Source: a virus. Taken from it: 63,575 nucleotides of DNA. Position numbers and translations under genes: made by a program. The stretch lies in IMG/VR virus record IMGVR_UViG_3300028399_000001, positions 1 through 63,575 of that record. One strand, given 5' to 3'. Position 1 is the stretch's first letter. Each line of letters begins with the position of its first letter. A model generated the notes under the pieces. The model was not told the DNA's origin, made no database searches, and worked only from the letters and a program-made list of their open reading frames with translations. Below are positions 1 to 63,575 of this stretch, in pieces.

Positions 1-103
1 GTCCGCTGCCGGGGCGCCAGCATAAAGCTTTCTCCCGGCTTAGTTTTTGGCGCATTCCGCGAGCGGCTGGGCTGGCAAGCATGCCCACCGTTGATCGCGC
101 TCC
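1..103. repeat. Direct terminal repeat, left copy (103 bp)
   Basis: The first 103 bases are identical to bases 63473-63575. An exact end repeat of this length is what an assembler leaves when it closes a circular or circularly permuted genome, so the two ends should be joined. The repeat begins inside the last unit of the interspaced repeat array, so the left end of the window is the continuation of that array. It could instead be a true short terminal redundancy of packaged DNA; sequence alone does not separate the two. Confidence 0.95.
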
Positions 104-133
104 GCCTAGCGGTGGCGGAATTGTGTGGTTCAT
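1..133 (-). CDS. Possible 48-residue ORF coupled to the TnpB-like gene (partial in window)
   Basis: On the minus strand an ATG at 133-131 overlaps the TGA of the upstream nuclease-like gene (ATGA) and follows a strong site, GGAGGACAACC. The frame stays open to base 1. If the ends are joined, it continues into array repeat 7 and stops at 63461-63459, giving about 48 residues starting MNHTIPPPLGGARS. No family is recognised and the composition is not clearly protein-like. The same stretch could be the leader or scaffold part of an RNA transcribed with the array, so protein coding is only one option. Confidence 0.3.
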   Translation of the reverse strand, partial: MNHTIPPPLGGARSTVGMLASPAARGMRQKLSREKALCWRPGSG

Positions 134-1431
134 TGGTTGTCCTCCTCTGCGAGCGGTTCCGAGGTTTTCTGCGCCTCGTCAACGCTCGCACCGACGAGGC
201 GTACCGAGATCCCCTTGGGCTCGGCTGCGTTGATGATCGCCTGACGCAGCTGGTCCCAGGGGAATGAATTGACGAACCGCCGGTCCCTGTCATCGTAGGC
301 GATTTCGGCGAACCGCCGGCGGTCCGCATAGCCGACCACGTGTGCCGCAATCTCTGAGATCCAGCTGCGCATCCGCCTGTGTTGCTTGCCGACCATCGCG
401 ATGCGCCGGCTGGCGAATCTCGGCACTGGTCGTTGCTCGGCTTTGGTGTCATCGGAGAATCGGTTCAGTCGCCGCGTGTGGTGCAGGATGGCGCCTCGGA
501 TTCTGCGGATGTGGTCCGCGTGCTCGATCCAGAGGCGTTCGTCCTTCTCGTTCAATGCGACCAACAGACTATCACTATCTGTCTTTACAAACAACGTCCC
601 ATGCCGTTTTTGTTCATCTCGCCGCGGTAGCCACGCGACGATCTTCACGACCACCTCCCAGAGCGCCCGCTGTCCGCCTGCATCGCGTTCGGTGATCTGT
701 CGGCTGGACTGTTGCCCATTGCGTCCAGACCGATCCGGTCCGCCGGCACGTCGTCGGTAGATGGATAGCTCGGCGGGTATCGCATCACCGCGGGCGATTG
801 CCTCGAGCGATCGACGCTGGCGTTTGTACCGCGGACCTGCGACGAGGCGCAGGCGCCACCGTTGCCCTGCCAGGGGGACTGACACGATCAGGTCTCGCCG
901 ATCGTCGTCCGTGATTTCGAGTGACCAGTTGGCAGCCGGTATCGGAACGGGCGCCGGATATTTTGCCCGCGGCAGGTGCTCATCGGAAAGCCATAACACC
1001 TTGTAGCGTCTGGCTTTCCATTTCAGCTTTGCTTGCTGTTCGGTCGCTGCCACGGTGACAGACGAGATTGCCGGGAACCGCTCGCGTGCTTCGGGGTACA
1101 GGTAGATCGTCGGCATTGGCGGCAGTTTTTCCATGCCGGGCTCACGCCGCACATCGCGAGCGTACAGCTCATCCACCAGCCAGTTCCAGAGCCGCGTTTG
1201 ATCCGACCAAGCGTCACGCAGCGCCGCGCGGAACTCCGCCCAGGTCGCGTCGAGAGGTTTTGCCACACGCATCGTGATCGCGCGTAGCACGTAGCGAGCC
1301 TGCCAGCACTGGCGGCACAGCACGGCGTCCCCGTGCCGTTTCCACCCGCGAGGCAGTCTCAGTCCGCGCTTGGTCGGCGTCGTCTTGTGCTCGTCCCAGC
1401 ATGACGAGCATCTGATGATATGATCGGTCAT
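130..1431 (-). CDS. TnpB/Cas12-like RuvC-fold protein, compact, no evident third RuvC motif
   Basis: This 433-residue protein reads like the TnpB/Cas12 superfamily. An N-terminal CxxC/CxxC zinc site (C8, C11, C39, C42) is followed by a helical and beta region. A RuvC-I-like strand with acidic residues follows (about 278-297, D285/D287). Next comes a basic bridge-helix-like stretch (303-365), then a RuvC-II-like strand with D380/D381 where TnpB has Glu. Then comes the typical FPWDQLRQAI helix (390-399). The usual C-terminal zinc finger and RuvC-III Asp are missing; the chain ends about 20 residues after the GISVRLV strand. Start at 1431 follows GGAGGATGAACCGAAA. It is last in the leftward operon and its 3' end faces the interspaced repeat array. 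It may be an RNA-guided binder with weak or no cleavage, as known for TldR and Cas12m proteins. Family call is by eye. Confidence 0.65.
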   Translation of the reverse strand: MTDHIIRCSSCWDEHKTTPTKRGLRLPRGWKRHGDAVLCRQCWQARYVLRAITMRVAKPLDATWAEFRAALRDAWSDQTRLWNWLVDELYARDVRREPGMEKLPPMPTIYLYPEARERFPAISSVTVAATEQQAKLKWKARRYKVLWLSDEHLPRAKYPAPVPIPAANWSLEITDDDRRDLIVSVPLAGQRWRLRLVAGPRYKRQRRSLEAIARGDAIPAELSIYRRRAGGPDRSGRNGQQSSRQITERDAGGQRALWEVVVKIVAWLPRRDEQKRHGTLFVKTDSDSLLVALNEKDERLWIEHADHIRRIRGAILHHTRRLNRFSDDTKAEQRPVPRFASRRIAMVGKQHRRMRSWISEIAAHVVGYADRRRFAEIAYDDRDRRFVNSFPWDQLRQAIINAAEPKGISVRLVGASVDEAQKTSEPLAEEDNQ

Positions 1432-2838: not shown

Positions 2839-2866
2839 CCGCGCAACCGCCGCCTAGGCTGCGCGG
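2839..2866. repeat. GC hairpin leader element, copy 2
   Basis: CCGCGCAACC and GGCTGCGCGG pair around an 8-nt loop, followed on the plus strand by AAAACTCGGAC, a tail shared with copies 3 and 4. It lies in the leader of the leftward gene 1994-2800. Confidence 0.85.
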
Positions 2867-2889
2867 AAAACTCGGACGACAGCAGTCAG

Positions 2890-2931
2890 CTAGTCTGACT
2901 GCGCTTGCCTGTCATCTATCGGTTTCGTCAT
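2890..2931 (-). CDS. Possible 13-residue leader or micro-ORF
   Basis: ATG at 2931 follows the same GGAGGATGAG site seen before every gene of this module, and the ORF reads MTKPIDDRQAQSD then TAG. The stop of the upstream gene (2933) lies inside the ribosome site. A 21-bp perfect palindrome (2947-2967) lies just upstream, as for the other cassettes. It may be a remnant of a lost cassette, a regulatory leader peptide or chance. Confidence 0.35.
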   Translation of the reverse strand: MTKPIDDRQAQSD

Positions 2932-2932
2932 C

Positions 2933-3154
2933 TCATCCTCCCGCTGGCGGCACGGTGACCGTGCCGCGTGAGATCAGCGAGCCAGCCTGCAACATGCAGT
3001 ATTCCGCGCTGACCTCAGCGCCGGTCAGCTCGAACTGTTCGAGCGCAAGCCGCTCGCGCAGTTCCTGGCGTGCCACCTGCTCGGCGTCATCCTCCGAGCC
3101 TCGCACCAGTATCATCGTCTCGAAATCTGGCAGCCACACATGGTATTGTGCCAT
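2933..3154 (-). CDS. Small unknown protein of the left module (73 aa)
   Basis: The protein starts MAQYHVWLPDFETMILVRGS and has an acidic, helical middle (EDDAEQVARQELRERLALEQ) and a short beta-like C-terminus. No family is recognised. Start at 3154 follows GGGAGGATGAGACC; an in-frame ATG at 3184 lies inside the hairpin leader and is rejected. The last residues are encoded by a 21-bp palindrome (2947-2967), so coding and structured DNA overlap here. Confidence 0.7.
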   Translation of the reverse strand: MAQYHVWLPDFETMILVRGSEDDAEQVARQELRERLALEQFELTGAEVSAEYCMLQAGSLISRGTVTVPPAGG

Positions 3155-3184
3155 GGTCTCATCCTCCCGGCGGCATGTATTCAC

Positions 3185-3214
3185 CCCGCGCAGCCGCCGC
3201 CAGAGCTGCGCGGG
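3185..3214. repeat. GC hairpin leader element, copy 3
   Basis: CCCGCGCAGC pairs perfectly with GCTGCGCGGG around a 10-nt loop, followed by AAACTCGGACG on the plus strand. It lies in the leader of the leftward gene 2933-3154. Confidence 0.85.
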
Positions 3215-3226
3215 AAACTCGGACGA

Positions 3227-3445
3227 TCACACGACGACAGGCAGGCGCATGCGCTCGCCTATCTCCTGCGCCTGCCGGATCGCAGGCAGCAGGGCGTTGG
3301 TCGGTCGTGTTGGCAATACCCGGACCACCCACCAGTCGGGCGGGTGGTAGTCCGTCCTCTCGCATGCGCAGTCGCATGCGTCCCCGTCACAGATTGCAGG
3401 GCTATATTGCCCTGTGCTATCTGCTATGATCCGTATGTGCGTCAT
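3227..3445 (-). CDS. Small unknown protein of the left module (72 aa)
   Basis: The protein begins MTHIRIIADSTGQYSPAICD, has a Cys/Asp-rich patch (CDGDACDCACERTD) that could hold a metal, then a short PPDWWVVRVLP strand and a helical C-terminus. It is not recognised. Start at 3445 follows GGGAGGTGAGATC; the longer reading from 3544 would cross the hairpin leader and is rejected. It is followed downstream by the 2933-3154 cassette. Confidence 0.7.
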   Translation of the reverse strand: MTHIRIIADSTGQYSPAICDGDACDCACERTDYHPPDWWVVRVLPTRPTNALLPAIRQAQEIGERMRLPVVV

Positions 3446-3474
3446 GATCTCACCTCCCGGCGGCACGTATTCAC

Positions 3475-3502
3475 CCGCGCAGCCGCCGCCTAGGCTGCGC
3501 GG
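3475..3502. repeat. GC hairpin leader element, copy 4
   Basis: CCGCGCAGCC and GGCTGCGCGG form perfect 10-bp arms around an 8-nt loop, followed by AAAACTCGGAC. It lies about 30 nt 5' of the start codon of the leftward gene 3227-3445. Flanking bases CGTATTCACC and the tail are shared with copy 3, so the repeated unit is about 48 bp. Confidence 0.88.
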
Positions 3503-3550
3503 AAAACTCGGACCGCGCACACTGTATGCGCGGTCAATCGTCAATCATTG

Positions 3551-4767: not shown

Positions 4768-4880
4768 GATCTCATCCTCCCATCCTACCGCGGCAGACAC
4801 CGGGCTGCCGCATCCCGCCGCGCTCCGAGTGAGCGGGTTGTCGGGGCCGCGGCGCATCCACCGCGGCCCATCGAAGCCGA

Positions 4881-5342
4881 TCACGCGGTGGCGAAGGCAC
4901 TCTCGCACGCAGCCGCGTGCGCCTCACAGTCATTGAGCCCGCGAGCGCGGGCATCCCGATACGCGCGGTGGAATCTGTCCTGATGGCGCCACTCCGCCAC
5001 CAGGTCGCGATGCATCCCCCGAGGCACCCACCGCGGAACCTCATATTCCCCCTCTTGGCGCGCGATGTCCAGGAGGTGGCGGATACCGGATTGCAGCGAG
5101 TCGTCGAAGTCCGCACACGAGGTGCAGAAGTTCACCCGTCCATCGCTGTCCGGATGGGCGATGGTGTACGATCCTCCGTACGGGGTCGCCCATACTGCCA
5201 GCACGTGCCCGCGGTATGCGTACACCACGGGCTGCTGGCGGATCACGCGTTCCGCCCGGCGCGCCGCATCCTGGCGCGCCTGGGCGACAGTCCGCCCAGA
5301 TCCCTCGATGCCCAGGTACTCGACTTTGATCGTTCTTGGCAT
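4881..5342 (-). CDS. First gene of the left module, unknown (153 aa)
   Basis: The protein starts MPRTIKVEYLGIEGSGRTVA. A basic helix (ARQDAARRAERVIRQQ) is followed by a beta-rich domain reading VVYAYRGHVLAVWATPYGGS and ending TIAHPDSDGRVNFC. A helical, His-rich C-terminus ends the chain. It is not recognised. Start at 5342 follows GGGAGGATGTGATC; the ATG at 5402 is too close to the promoter and has no site. It is promoter-proximal to the good sigma70-like sequence at 5424-5451. Confidence 0.7.
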   Translation of the reverse strand: MPRTIKVEYLGIEGSGRTVAQARQDAARRAERVIRQQPVVYAYRGHVLAVWATPYGGSYTIAHPDSDGRVNFCTSCADFDDSLQSGIRHLLDIARQEGEYEVPRWVPRGMHRDLVAEWRHQDRFHRAYRDARARGLNDCEAHAAACESAFATA

Positions 5343-11307: not shown

Positions 11308-11712
11308 GTGGCGGTTACGGAACGATCACTCAAGGCGTGGTTCGGAGACCACTGGCTGCGCGGCATGCCTCCTCCCGTGCGCGAGTCGGTCGAAGGGTCG
11401 CTTGAGGCGATTCGTACCGCCGCATATGAGATATTGAGGAACACCCCAGCCGGTCCTGAGCAGAGCCGTGCGATCACACGGCTTCGGGACCAGTTGGACC
11501 TTGCGATGCTTGCCGCGTGGGAGCAGTATCTTCCAGCATGGCAGGACGCATGGTTTGGTGACCACTGGCTGCGCGGCTTCAAACCGGAAGATAAGTCGCG
11601 TGCAGAAGTCATCCTCCGTGCCGTGCAGAGGGGCGCCGAGTCGCTTGACGGCGACCGGCGCTCGCTGCGCGGTGCCTGGCTGGCTGCAATGCGTGCGTTG
11701 AGGTGTATCTAA
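11308..11712 (+). CDS. Small helical protein, possible Acb2/Tad1-like hairpin domain
   Basis: GTG start two bases after the previous stop; 134 residues. The motif WFGDHWLRG occurs twice (about 11-19 and 82-90). Between them runs a helical hairpin, EAIRTAAYEILRNTPAGPEQ followed by SRAITRLRDQLDLAMLAAW. The P-x-GPEQSRAI..L....A..A pattern recalls the Acb2/Tad1-type hairpin found in phage cyclic-nucleotide sponges, which can occur in head-gene clusters. The resemblance is short and judged by eye; a virion structural role is equally possible. Confidence 0.45.
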   Translation: MAVTERSLKAWFGDHWLRGMPPPVRESVEGSLEAIRTAAYEILRNTPAGPEQSRAITRLRDQLDLAMLAAWEQYLPAWQDAWFGDHWLRGFKPEDKSRAEVILRAVQRGAESLDGDRRSLRGAWLAAMRALRCI

Positions 11713-12230
11713 TGGTCGATGTCGTCAAGTACGTCAAGCATCCAATCGACGAAACCAAGCTGATCGATTTGCTGAAGAGCCCAGCCGTTGACAGCGTGAC
11801 GGTCTACGTGATCAAGGACGTTCCAGAAGAGGATGAGCCTCCGAAAGCGCCGCCTATCATAGCCCGCAACGTGTCGGGGCATCCCGTGTACTTCCCGCTC
11901 GATGTCGATGTGGACGTGGATGCGATGCGAGAATTCTTCCGCGACGGCGCATTCGGTCGCATCGCCGTGCTCGAGCCTGCGAACGGTTACCTTGCAAAGG
12001 TTGCAGCAATCCTGACAGGCGGGGTCGTCTACGCCGTTACGGACGGGGAACTTGACGAACGCAACATGGAGGAGTTCGACATTCGGCATGTGAATGGCGA
12101 CGCGATGCATGTTGGCGAGATCATGGAACCGCAGGAGTTGGATGCCGTCGTGATCGGACCGAGCGAACGCCAGGACGCGCTGGAGGAGGTATGGCGGAAA
12201 CACACGCAGAAGATACTCAAGATGCAATGA
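11712..12230 (+). CDS. Unknown late protein (172 aa)
   Basis: The ATG at 11712 overlaps the previous stop (TAATG). The protein starts MVDVVKYVKHPIDETKLIDL and has a predicted alpha/beta texture: VDSVTVYVIKDVPEEDEPPK, a linker, a helical middle with EFFRDGAFGRIAVLEPANG and an acidic C-terminus. Not recognised. Place between head decoration and terminase suggests a head-completion or terminase-associated job, but nothing in the sequence proves it. Confidence 0.7.
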   Translation: MVDVVKYVKHPIDETKLIDLLKSPAVDSVTVYVIKDVPEEDEPPKAPPIIARNVSGHPVYFPLDVDVDVDAMREFFRDGAFGRIAVLEPANGYLAKVAAILTGGVVYAVTDGELDERNMEEFDIRHVNGDAMHVGEIMEPQELDAVVIGPSERQDALEEVWRKHTQKILKMQ

Positions 12231-20175: not shown

Positions 20176-20642
20176 GCGTAACGGTAACATCGAACTGGGC
20201 TGCCGCGTTGGACAAGGTGGCGTCGGAGCTGGAATCGCAGGGGATCGACGGCATCGGTCGTGACGTTCGCGTTCAGCGTTCGCCGTTTGACAGCAGGCAG
20301 ATTCGACCGGGGTGTTACGTCACGCCGACGGACAGGAAGTATTCGCGTCCGACGAGTTCGCACAGCACGATCGGCTACGGATGTATGATCACGGTGATCC
20401 AGGGCGTATCGCGCAGGGGCGGGTCATCGCCAGACCGTTTGACTGGCTGGCAGGAGGTTGTATCGCGATTATTCCACGACAAGCGGCTTCATTCGGACGA
20501 CTACAGTTCGGACGTATTGTGTCTGCCCTGCAAGGTGGAGGACGAGACGCCGCTTGAGCCGAGCGTTGTGCTTGAGAAATACCCAGAGGCCGAGGTAACT
20601 TCTTTGGTAGTAAGGGTTTGGCTTAGAGAGGCGCGAACATAA
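20172..20642 (+). CDS. Probable tail terminator or head-tail joining protein (156 aa)
   Basis: MSVTVTSNWAAALDKVASEL starts a small alpha/beta protein with YGCMITVIQGVSRRGGSS and a C-terminal strand SLVVRVWLREART. N-terminal helix plus a central sheet, and position just upstream of the tail tube gene, are typical of tail-completion proteins. The start overlaps the previous stop by four bases (ATGA). Confidence 0.55.
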   Translation: MSVTVTSNWAAALDKVASELESQGIDGIGRDVRVQRSPFDSRQIRPGCYVTPTDRKYSRPTSSHSTIGYGCMITVIQGVSRRGGSSPDRLTGWQEVVSRLFHDKRLHSDDYSSDVLCLPCKVEDETPLEPSVVLEKYPEAEVTSLVVRVWLREART

Positions 20643-20653
20643 GGAGACGTGTG

Positions 20654-43414: not shown

Positions 43415-44572
43415 TCAGTTTACCGGAACGAATTGAAACCGGATAGGTTCGCCCAAGGGCTTACGCTGCTCTTGGGTCACATTCCCATCTTTGTCGAGCA
43501 TCTGCACGTAGACGGGCGGCAGACGCCCCAAAATGGATCTGGTGATCAGATCCATGTCAATCGCTGCATCGCGTCCTGGAGGCCCCTGGGGGCCTTGCCG
43601 CGGCTGAAATCGAGGGTCGGACGCCATCATGTCCAACAGCTTATGGTAGTCGATGATCGGTGTCTTGCCTGGCGGGCCCGGGTCGCCCTTCGGGCCTTGC
43701 TTCGGCTGGAACCGATCATCCTTCGCCATCATGTCAAGCAGCTTGCTGTAGTCAACCGCAGGCTGTTCAGGCGGCTTCTGTCGAGGTGAGATAGGGGGGT
43801 ACGCCCAGTCATCCCGTTGGACAGGAGGGCTCCGCGGGGTTGGACACTGACCGTCAGGACATGGCCTGTCGATGCTGCGCCAACCACCGACGCCAACGCC
43901 GAGCCCCCATCTGCGTTCTACTCGCTGGCAAAATTCAATCACCGCGGATGGCCGCGGGCCGTACGCTTTCCGGAATGCCTTTGCGTTTTCGACGCGACCG
44001 ATTTCTCCTTGGCCGGCAGTCATCACGCCAACAACCTCTCCCTTGGAGTTCAAGACTGGTCCGCCGCTGTCGCCCTGGAGGATCGCGCAGTTGTAGGCAA
44101 CCATTCCAACCAGATTATCCGTCCCGACCTTTCCGTACCAATGCCTGAGCCTGCCCTGCATACCGCCCCACCCGGCGAACTCCAGAATGTCGTCTGGGCC
44201 AGGAGGGATCGATGCCACAGGCAGCGGGCGGAGGTTCTTTTTCTCGGCGATCACGAATCCGATGTCATGCCCGTATTTGTCCTGCGTTGCATTCTCATGC
44301 GTCACCTTGGTTGTCGTTCCGTCCGGCCATGTGATCGTGGTTGGCAAATCGGAAAGGACGTGTTTTGCCGTCAGGACGCCCTTGACTTTTCCGAGCGTGA
44401 CATAGACGCCTGATCCTCCGTCGATCCTGACGACGGCTTTGTGCCAATCGGCGTCAGGCGACCACTTCCAGACGCCAACGGGCACAAGGTCAGATGCACA
44501 CGCGGGGGTGCCTGCAACAAACGCGACTGCGACAACAGCGGCGACAAGGTACTTGCGAATGAATCGGCGCAT
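43415..44572 (-). CDS. Secreted trypsin-like serine protease with collagen-like linkers (385 aa)
   Basis: A signal peptide (residues 1-26) precedes an S1-type protease domain with the triad in order: H71 in VLTAKHVL, D103 in YGHDIGFV, S169 in QGDSGGPVLN. After about residue 230 come Pro-rich linkers and two collagen-like stretches (GPKGDPGPPG, GPQGPPGRD). Each follows a repeated YxKLLDMMAxDxRFQPxQGP unit. Start at 44572 follows CAGGAGTACACAAAC. It lies in the lysis/fibre region and is exported, so it may cut host envelope proteins or mature virion fibres. Confidence 0.88.
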   Translation of the reverse strand: MRRFIRKYLVAAVVAVAFVAGTPACASDLVPVGVWKWSPDADWHKAVVRIDGGSGVYVTLGKVKGVLTAKHVLSDLPTTITWPDGTTTKVTHENATQDKYGHDIGFVIAEKKNLRPLPVASIPPGPDDILEFAGWGGMQGRLRHWYGKVGTDNLVGMVAYNCAILQGDSGGPVLNSKGEVVGVMTAGQGEIGRVENAKAFRKAYGPRPSAVIEFCQRVERRWGLGVGVGGWRSIDRPCPDGQCPTPRSPPVQRDDWAYPPISPRQKPPEQPAVDYSKLLDMMAKDDRFQPKQGPKGDPGPPGKTPIIDYHKLLDMMASDPRFQPRQGPQGPPGRDAAIDMDLITRSILGRLPPVYVQMLDKDGNVTQEQRKPLGEPIRFQFVPVN

Positions 44573-62970: not shown

Positions 62971-63015
62971 ATCATCCTCCGCAGTTTTTGGGTGTTCTAT
63001 CCCATCATTTTGCTC

Positions 63016-63483
63016 CGCATCGTCCAAACGTTTGTCTGTCCGCTGTCGTGCTGTACATTTTCACCCGCATGTGGCGAATGGGCTACGACCGCAGCGACTA
63101 AACGTTCGTTCATCTGCTGCCTGTAGCCGCAGTCGATTGAGCAAATCTGGTCCGATATCCCGCAACGCCCAAACGCCCGTTTGTCCGCTGCCGGGTGTTG
63201 TGCATCCTTGGAATGGGAGTGAACGGCAATCCCGCGTCGTCCAAACGTTTGTCTGTCTGCTGCCGGCTTTTCGACTGCTATGAGGCGGCAGACGAACGGT
63301 GCCCCCGCAGCGTTCAAACGCCCGTTTGTCCGCTGTTGCCACTCGCGACTTCGACTCGCTGAAGCTTGGGAGCGTACATGCAGTTGATAAACATTCGTTT
63401 ATCCGCTGCCGTACTGGCTAATGTGGAATGACCGCTAGGGCCTGCTCTCCCGCAGCATCTAAACGCTCGTTTGTCCGCTGCCG
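63016..63483. repeat. Seven-unit interspaced dyad-repeat array (CRISPR-like, degenerate)
   Basis: Seven 33-bp repeats start at 63016, 63090, 63161, 63233, 63306, 63379 and 63451, with periods of 71-74 bp. Consensus by halves is CGCAGCGTCCAAACG then CTCGTTTGTCCGCTGCCG. Six intervening stretches are unique, 41, 38, 39, 40, 40 and 39 bp. Each repeat is a dyad: GCAGC/GCTGC outside and AAAC/GTTT inside. Units differ from consensus at 2-9 positions, mostly transitions, more than in an ordinary CRISPR. At positions 10 and 23 the bases covary (C-G in 1, 3, 4, 5; T-A in 2, 6; T-G in 7). It lies between the 62758 gene and, across the joined ends, the TnpB-like gene. Confidence 0.85.
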
Positions 63484-63575
63484 GGGCGCCAGCATAAAGC
63501 TTTCTCCCGGCTTAGTTTTTGGCGCATTCCGCGAGCGGCTGGGCTGGCAAGCATGCCCACCGTTGATCGCGCTCC
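63473..63575. repeat. Direct terminal repeat, right copy (103 bp)
   Basis: Identical to bases 1-103. It begins in the last third of array repeat 7. Joining the ends removes one copy and places the array about 120 bp from the 3' end of the TnpB-like gene. Confidence 0.95.

Follow-up and report, generated by a model that had tools for sequence, protein, structure and literature searches.

Organization of the effector locus

The DNA analysed here (the window) is IMG/VR virus record IMGVR_UViG_3300028399_000001, a stretch of 63,575 nucleotides (nt). Bases 1–103 recur at 63473–63575, which suggests that the contig is a complete circular genome of 63,472 base pairs, and profile matches to terminase and portal proteins identify it as that of a tailed phage. 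Its minus strand carries the element under study, a CRISPR-like module (CRISPR, clustered regularly interspaced short palindromic repeats) that consists of a gene for a compact effector derived from Cas12f and predicted to be nuclease-dead, an RNA resembling a trans-activating CRISPR RNA (tracrRNA), and a repeat–spacer array (Table 1). Owing to the circular join, the sequence 3′ of the effector gene sits at the far end of the window. An initial annotation, made from the letters of the window alone, had read the gene as encoding a compact TnpB/Cas12-like protein, and its 433-residue minus-strand frame stands.

Table 1. Coordinates of the effector gene, scaffold RNA and array in the window
Feature	Position	Strand	Basis or remark
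Effector gene, 433 amino acids, Cas12f-derived, predicted nuclease-dead	130..1431	-	profiles, fold, alignment
N-terminal Cys4 zinc ribbon, C8/C11/C39/C42	1306..1410	-	conserved in 22/22 members having the region
RuvC-I strand region, residues 279–294	550..597	-	profile alignments, model, family counts
RuvC-II strand, residues 376–381, Asp-Asp for Glu-Asp	289..306	-	profile and family alignments
Scaffold (tracr-like) RNA between gene stop and array	1..129, continuing over circular join to ~63486	-	family-conserved structure
Scaffold hairpin P1, loop ACCGCTA	102..118	-	covariation
Scaffold core motif CCGCTCGCGG	57..66	-	scaffold alignment
Anti-repeat GCCGGG, pairing with CCCGGC at start of repeat 1	34..39	-	anti-repeat/repeat covariation
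Array of 7 diverged hairpin repeats (~36 nt) and 6 bounded spacers of 35–38 nt	63015..63485	-	repeat analysis
Repeats of the array	63450-63485, 63378-63413, 63305-63340, 63232-63267, 63160-63195, 63089-63124, 63015-63050	-	
Scaffold-proximal spacer 1, 36 nt	63414..63449	-	no target found

A second copy of the gene was found in the host bin, on contig C799, and its product is 47% identical to the window protein along the whole length. A family was built from these two copies, and successive profile scans of IMG/VR yielded 3, 9 and finally 24 loci (L numbers), which represent ~22 distinct related viruses. The redundancy concerns L020 and L021, which are 99.6% identical where they overlap, L070 and L071, which have identical arrays, and L026 and L078, which lie on one contig. 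The cellular copies are that on C799 and one more in G349, the genome of a bacterium from the same phylum.

Relationship to Cas12f

The effector protein alone has no significant match in Pfam or PHROGs. Against the PADLOC Cas12f model, the window protein scored an expect value (E) of 4.2e-7 and the best family member 2.3e-13, with a weak match for the G349 copy and the C799 copy absent from the match list. A profile of the family matched Cas12f chains in the PDB with E-values of 6e-11 to 2e-9. The AlphaFold monomer model computed from the single sequence was unusable (predicted local distance difference test, pLDDT, of 37), and that computed with 9 sequences reached a pLDDT of 81 and a predicted template modelling (TM) score of 0.57. 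A Foldseek search with the model returned Cas12f for all of the top 16 matches, with AsCas12f1 as the best (E 1.6e-17) and Cas12m ranking far below (E 3e-6). The TM-scores to Cas12f are only 0.4–0.5, which leaves the domain arrangement uncertain. Structure prediction and profile search, both proposed in the initial annotation as checks, thus agree, and the predicted model supports an RNase H fold. On profiles and predicted fold, the nearest family of the effector is Cas12f, and not TnpB/TldR or Cas12m; the Cas12 ancestry first proposed is retained, with Cas12f taking the place of these other relatives. The best viral structural match, BFVD entry A0A1P8DIN8 (467 amino acids, E 5.6e-17), may be a further relative.

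Predicted loss of the cutting site

The alignment of catalytic positions in homologues bears out most of what had been read from the window protein. D380, which stands beside D381, aligns with the RuvC-II Glu of AsCas12f1, in line with the Asp-for-Glu exchange noted at the outset, and the position is Asp in 21 members of the family and Glu in 1. The RuvC-I strand is less intact than the annotation had it. Profile alignments place its catalytic Asp position most likely at K283, the residue at which strand β-1 ends in the model. Residue 283 is Arg in 15 of the 24 members, Asp occupies the nearby position 285 in 10 of 24, and the Asp is conserved in neither possible register.

The window chain ends 52 residues past D381, and every full-length relative ends 32–55 residues after the RuvC-II position, none of them reaching RuvC-III. 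The lack of a third RuvC motif and the end before the usual zinc finger, both remarked on in the initial annotation, are accordingly common to all full-length relatives. Because these relatives stop at the corresponding point, the end of the window chain is not a frameshift, and the comparison of sequences indicates a C-terminal truncation that is old and common to the family and did not arise from a sequencing error in the window. The Cas12f1-like TNB domain of Pfam was matched over the first 26–29 of its 60 positions, in two relatives and below the cut-off. No intact RuvC D-E-D triad was found, as the RuvC-I Asp is unconserved, the RuvC-II Glu is replaced by Asp and RuvC-III is absent. From the shared truncation and the altered RuvC-I and RuvC-II, we infer that the protein is unable to cut.

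A nuclease-dead, RNA-guided binder is thus well supported by the predicted fold and the profile searches. The earlier suggestion of an RNA-guided repressor or interference protein holds to this extent; a single-guide protein of the TldR kind is disfavoured, since an array and a tracr-like RNA, neither of them noticed in the initial annotation, are present. The N-terminal zinc site, likewise predicted at the start, recurs across the family (Table 1). At the C-terminus of many members, a short acidic tail contains a pLA-like motif (e.g. EPLAEED, PSLAVS, DPLAETQ), which may be a partner-binding site.

A conserved scaffold RNA

A conserved structured RNA of ~120 nt lies directly 3′ of the effector gene on the same strand, and is followed by the array. 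Scaffold and array occupy this position in nearly every relative; among the exceptions are L067, whose contig ends too early, and L073, in which the scaffold is ~750 nt further away. RNAalifold applied to a MAFFT alignment found only part of the structure, and for the covariation counts hairpin P1 and the anti-repeat were excised by hand, guided by a script. The P1 loop is nearly fixed as ACCGnCA and its stem is free to change, with 97% of cells paired and a covariation of 0.79 versus 0.20 in shuffles. A hexamer located just before a conserved GAT is complementary to the first repeat at its 5′ end, with 99% paired and a covariation of 0.94 versus 0.21 that was matched by none of 500 shuffles. 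The excision by hand favours pairing, and the permutation of loci is the fairer control; over 21 rows, one of which (L068) had been trimmed too far and was counted as failing, none of 5000 permutations matched the hexamer/repeat pairing. The two L024 copies, which share one genome, show a compensated change between them (CTACGG/CCGTAG versus TCACGG/CCGTGA).

Because it covaries with the repeats, the hexamer behaves as the anti-repeat of a tracrRNA, the expression of which is a prediction from sequence. A search of Rfam gave no match for the scaffolds of two relatives. A scaffold match in an Aphanizomenon phage was dismissed as chance, as it falls within a replication gene that has no annotated effector next to it.

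Repeat–spacer arrays and micro-arrays

The repeat period is ~73 nt in the window and 71–75 nt across the family. The arrays hold 4–6 repeats in C799, 9 in L019, 6 in L022, 6 in L027, ~14 in L066 and 9 in L072, and G349 has the scaffold with one repeat. In that genome (locus L028, 1480–2800), inspection by eye places the effector gene, scaffold and single repeat beside a TonB-receptor-like gene.

The repeats of the window are only ~70–80% alike, and one of the seven now folds poorly, as would be found in a decaying, functionless remnant in the window phage. We consider such decay very improbable, given that the frame is open with conserved motifs, the repeat stems are maintained via paired and G-U changes, the anti-repeat still matches repeat 1, and the arrays of the relatives L019, L022, L066 and L072 are near-perfect.

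Micro-arrays were found in L024, L065, L066 and L074, and less clearly in L023, L075 and L077. Many of their units retain only the 3′ 11–12 nt of the repeat (e.g. GGTCACTTCGGG, GGAAGCTGCGGG), a length that is, to our knowledge, much below that of the repeats in CRISPR arrays. The stretches between the micro-repeats are variable, mostly of 10–30 nt, and many micro-spacers measure 10–20 nt. The 5′ half of the first repeat is complementary to the short units, which suggests that tracrRNA and CRISPR RNA (crRNA) pair in trans. In genome G406 (L065), a single effector gene is accompanied by three or more scattered copies of the scaffold, and each copy has a micro-array. The extra copies on the L065 contig were located at 4871–5071, 20388–20644 and 43471–43613.

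Spacer targets and turnover

Five spacers from four relative lineages match the lineage of their own carrier perfectly over 35–44 nt. Spacer 1 of L020 spans the start of the major head (capsid) gene, its ribosome site and ATG included, and spacer 1 of L021 to the head maturation protease, a target read on the L020 contig since the L021 contig ends first. The others are spacer 5 of L022, which matches the start of a DNA methyltransferase gene, spacer 1 of L027, which matches a small gene upstream of its own effector, and spacer 1 of L069, which matches a phage gene of unknown function. By a hand count, self matches occur in 4 of 18 first spacers and in 1 of ~84 later ones (Fisher p 0.003). Moreover, L020 and L021 differ in spacer 1 and have the other spacers in common, in spite of the 99.6% identity over 8.6 kb. 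The enrichment at spacer 1 and this difference are what would be expected if spacers turn over next to the scaffold and are directed at the same or related phages. An imperfect match was found for spacer 6 of L027, which agrees at 26 of 27 positions with a gene that has a weak replication-protein match. In the L073 array (~2847–3400), two spacers resemble two alleles of one coding site, and a pair in the L064 array (~11381–11760) likewise resembles two alleles of one target site.

Proposed function

We propose that this module is probably a phage-borne, nuclease-dead derivative of type V-F, and that it probably acts by RNA-guided DNA binding to silence phage genes, mainly in lysogens. The array transcript would be cut into guides, which would pair with the scaffold and then load the effector, and the loaded complex would bind matching phage DNA and block transcription without cutting. 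Binding at a start codon or within essential late genes would block transcription as it does in Cas12m, which interferes by binding without cutting (PMC10442227, PMC11013384). The main action would take place in lysogens, through the silencing of genes of identical or related superinfecting phages, because the spacers of relatives match their own lineage and a tyrosine integrase occurs in about half of the carriers (12 of 23 virus records). Self-matching guides could be tolerated because the effector is predicted to be unable to cut; a cutting effector would harm its carrier.

We think that this role in lysogens against superinfection is the most economical account, and that its main rival is self-regulation, in which self-derived guides would repress late or replication genes of the carrier, for instance in holding lysogeny or timing the lytic programme. 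Perfect self matches at the capsid start codon, in the 5′ part of the methyltransferase gene and in the gene just upstream of the effector are what such a regulator would use. Self-regulation is nevertheless unlikely, as self matches account for only ~5 of 100 spacers, near-identical phages already differ in array content, which thus changes quickly, and the micro-spacers are not enriched for matches in their own genomes.

Several observations weigh against the proposed silencing of related phages. No target was found for the window's own spacers, in searches that included two 20-nt cores in IMG/VR, and in the family as a whole targets are known for only a minority of the spacers. The five protospacers display no obvious common protospacer adjacent motif, no integrase was found in the window phage, and the repeats of the window are diverged. 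Cas1 was found neither in the host bin, nor in G349, nor in 9 virus contigs, which may be incomplete, in a search with 9 of 14 controls positive. The many spacers without a known phage target would also suit a control of host genes through phage-encoded guides, as exerted by the TldRs, phage-encoded dead TnpB repressors of host genes (PMC13418256). This appears improbable, since the known matches are phage genes and the window spacers have no significant match in the host bin (best E ~1).

Silencing of related phages could also be extended, tentatively and with some doubt, to the origin of the guides. Fragments of the own or an identical phage may be inserted beside the scaffold without Cas1, and form a self-guide memory for non-cutting immunity against sister phages; some arrays would have shrunk to micro-guides with 11–12-nt repeats and dispersed tracr copies.

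If the proposed function is true, a phage family has turned Cas12f into a non-cutting silencer that safely carries guides against its own genome, and provides a concrete, testable example of viruses that use RNA guides for homotypic immunity or self-regulation. The micro-arrays and scattered scaffold copies hint at a route by which single-guide RNAs and tracr/crRNA pairs interconvert, and with spacers turning over while no Cas1 is detectable, one may ask how new guides get written. The predicted natural DNA binder, of ~400 amino acids, could serve as a tool.

Genomic context of the module

The carriers are phages with terminase and portal. The module is optional, as the relative L062, 77% identical across 11 kb, keeps the flanking genes without it. 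Searches with tblastn against cultured phages gave nothing significant, either for the window protein or for one relative, and one relative had no match in plasmids. The window phage also encodes YqaJ and ERF recombination proteins and a Cro/C1-type helix-turn-helix protein. Two genes upstream of the effector, at 1994–2836 on the minus strand, lies a gene for a DUF4942 protein (PF13708, E 1e-35) with a weak PHROG link to DNA methyltransferase. G+C-rich intergenic boxes of ~45–57 nt with the core CCGCCGCCtAGGCTGCGCGG are found at 1932–1976, 2821–2877, 3168–3224 and 3457–3513, directly upstream of small minus-strand genes, and may be regulatory or terminator-like. In L022, an 18-nt unit is repeated head to tail ~20 times at positions 1–584, immediately before the effector gene on its upstream side.

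Comparison with known systems

The module resembles type V-F systems with Cas12f, such as AsCas12f1, in sequence profile, fold, CRISPR array and tracr-like RNA. By contrast, the present family lacks RuvC-III and the TNB zinc finger, has altered RuvC-I and RuvC-II and an N-terminal zinc ribbon, is phage-borne, and includes relatives with micro-arrays and self-matching spacers. A nuclease-deactivated Cas12f (PDB 9n9c and related entries; a PDB chain of 365 amino acids) is matched with E 1.2e-4 by profile and E 1.0e-13 by fold. The proteins of these entries are bacterial and linked to sigma factors; a scan of neighbouring genes in the window, L019, L024, L025 and L027 revealed no sigma domain.

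CasMu-V likewise combines a Cas12 that lacks RuvC-III with an adjoining CRISPR array (PMC10910872). As its Cas12 is inactivated by the same loss, an RNA-guided transposition module of this kind comes into question, and we regard it as scarcely credible. CasMu-V is set apart by its description, in which it accompanies MuA/MuB in transposons, whereas the carriers here are tailed phages with terminase and portal. No transposase neighbour was found at the loci examined; the Mu-transpos_C and DDE_2 models were unmatched too, a weak argument in that the controls were also silent. TldR is, as here, a nuclease-dead, phage-encoded RNA-guided binder, and differs in its derivation from TnpB and its one guide RNA, in contrast to the Cas12f ancestry and the arrays of this family. 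Cas12m (type V-M) shares interference by binding without cutting, but is larger and a weaker structural match (E 3e-6).

Compact type V effectors adjoining arrays, mostly without acquisition genes, have been described in huge phages and landfill viruses (PMC7162821, PMC12607003). The former carry V-F/V-U systems and 'dCas14', with phage spacers against core genes of other phages (PMC7162821), and the latter include small phage type V-like proteins without RuvC motifs (PMC12607003). A trend towards RuvC inactivation recurs in type V (PMC12669027). Descriptions of the uniform truncation, of self-matching first spacers and of micro-arrays with 11–12-nt repeats are absent from the accessible literature, outside which most subscription papers and preprints lie.
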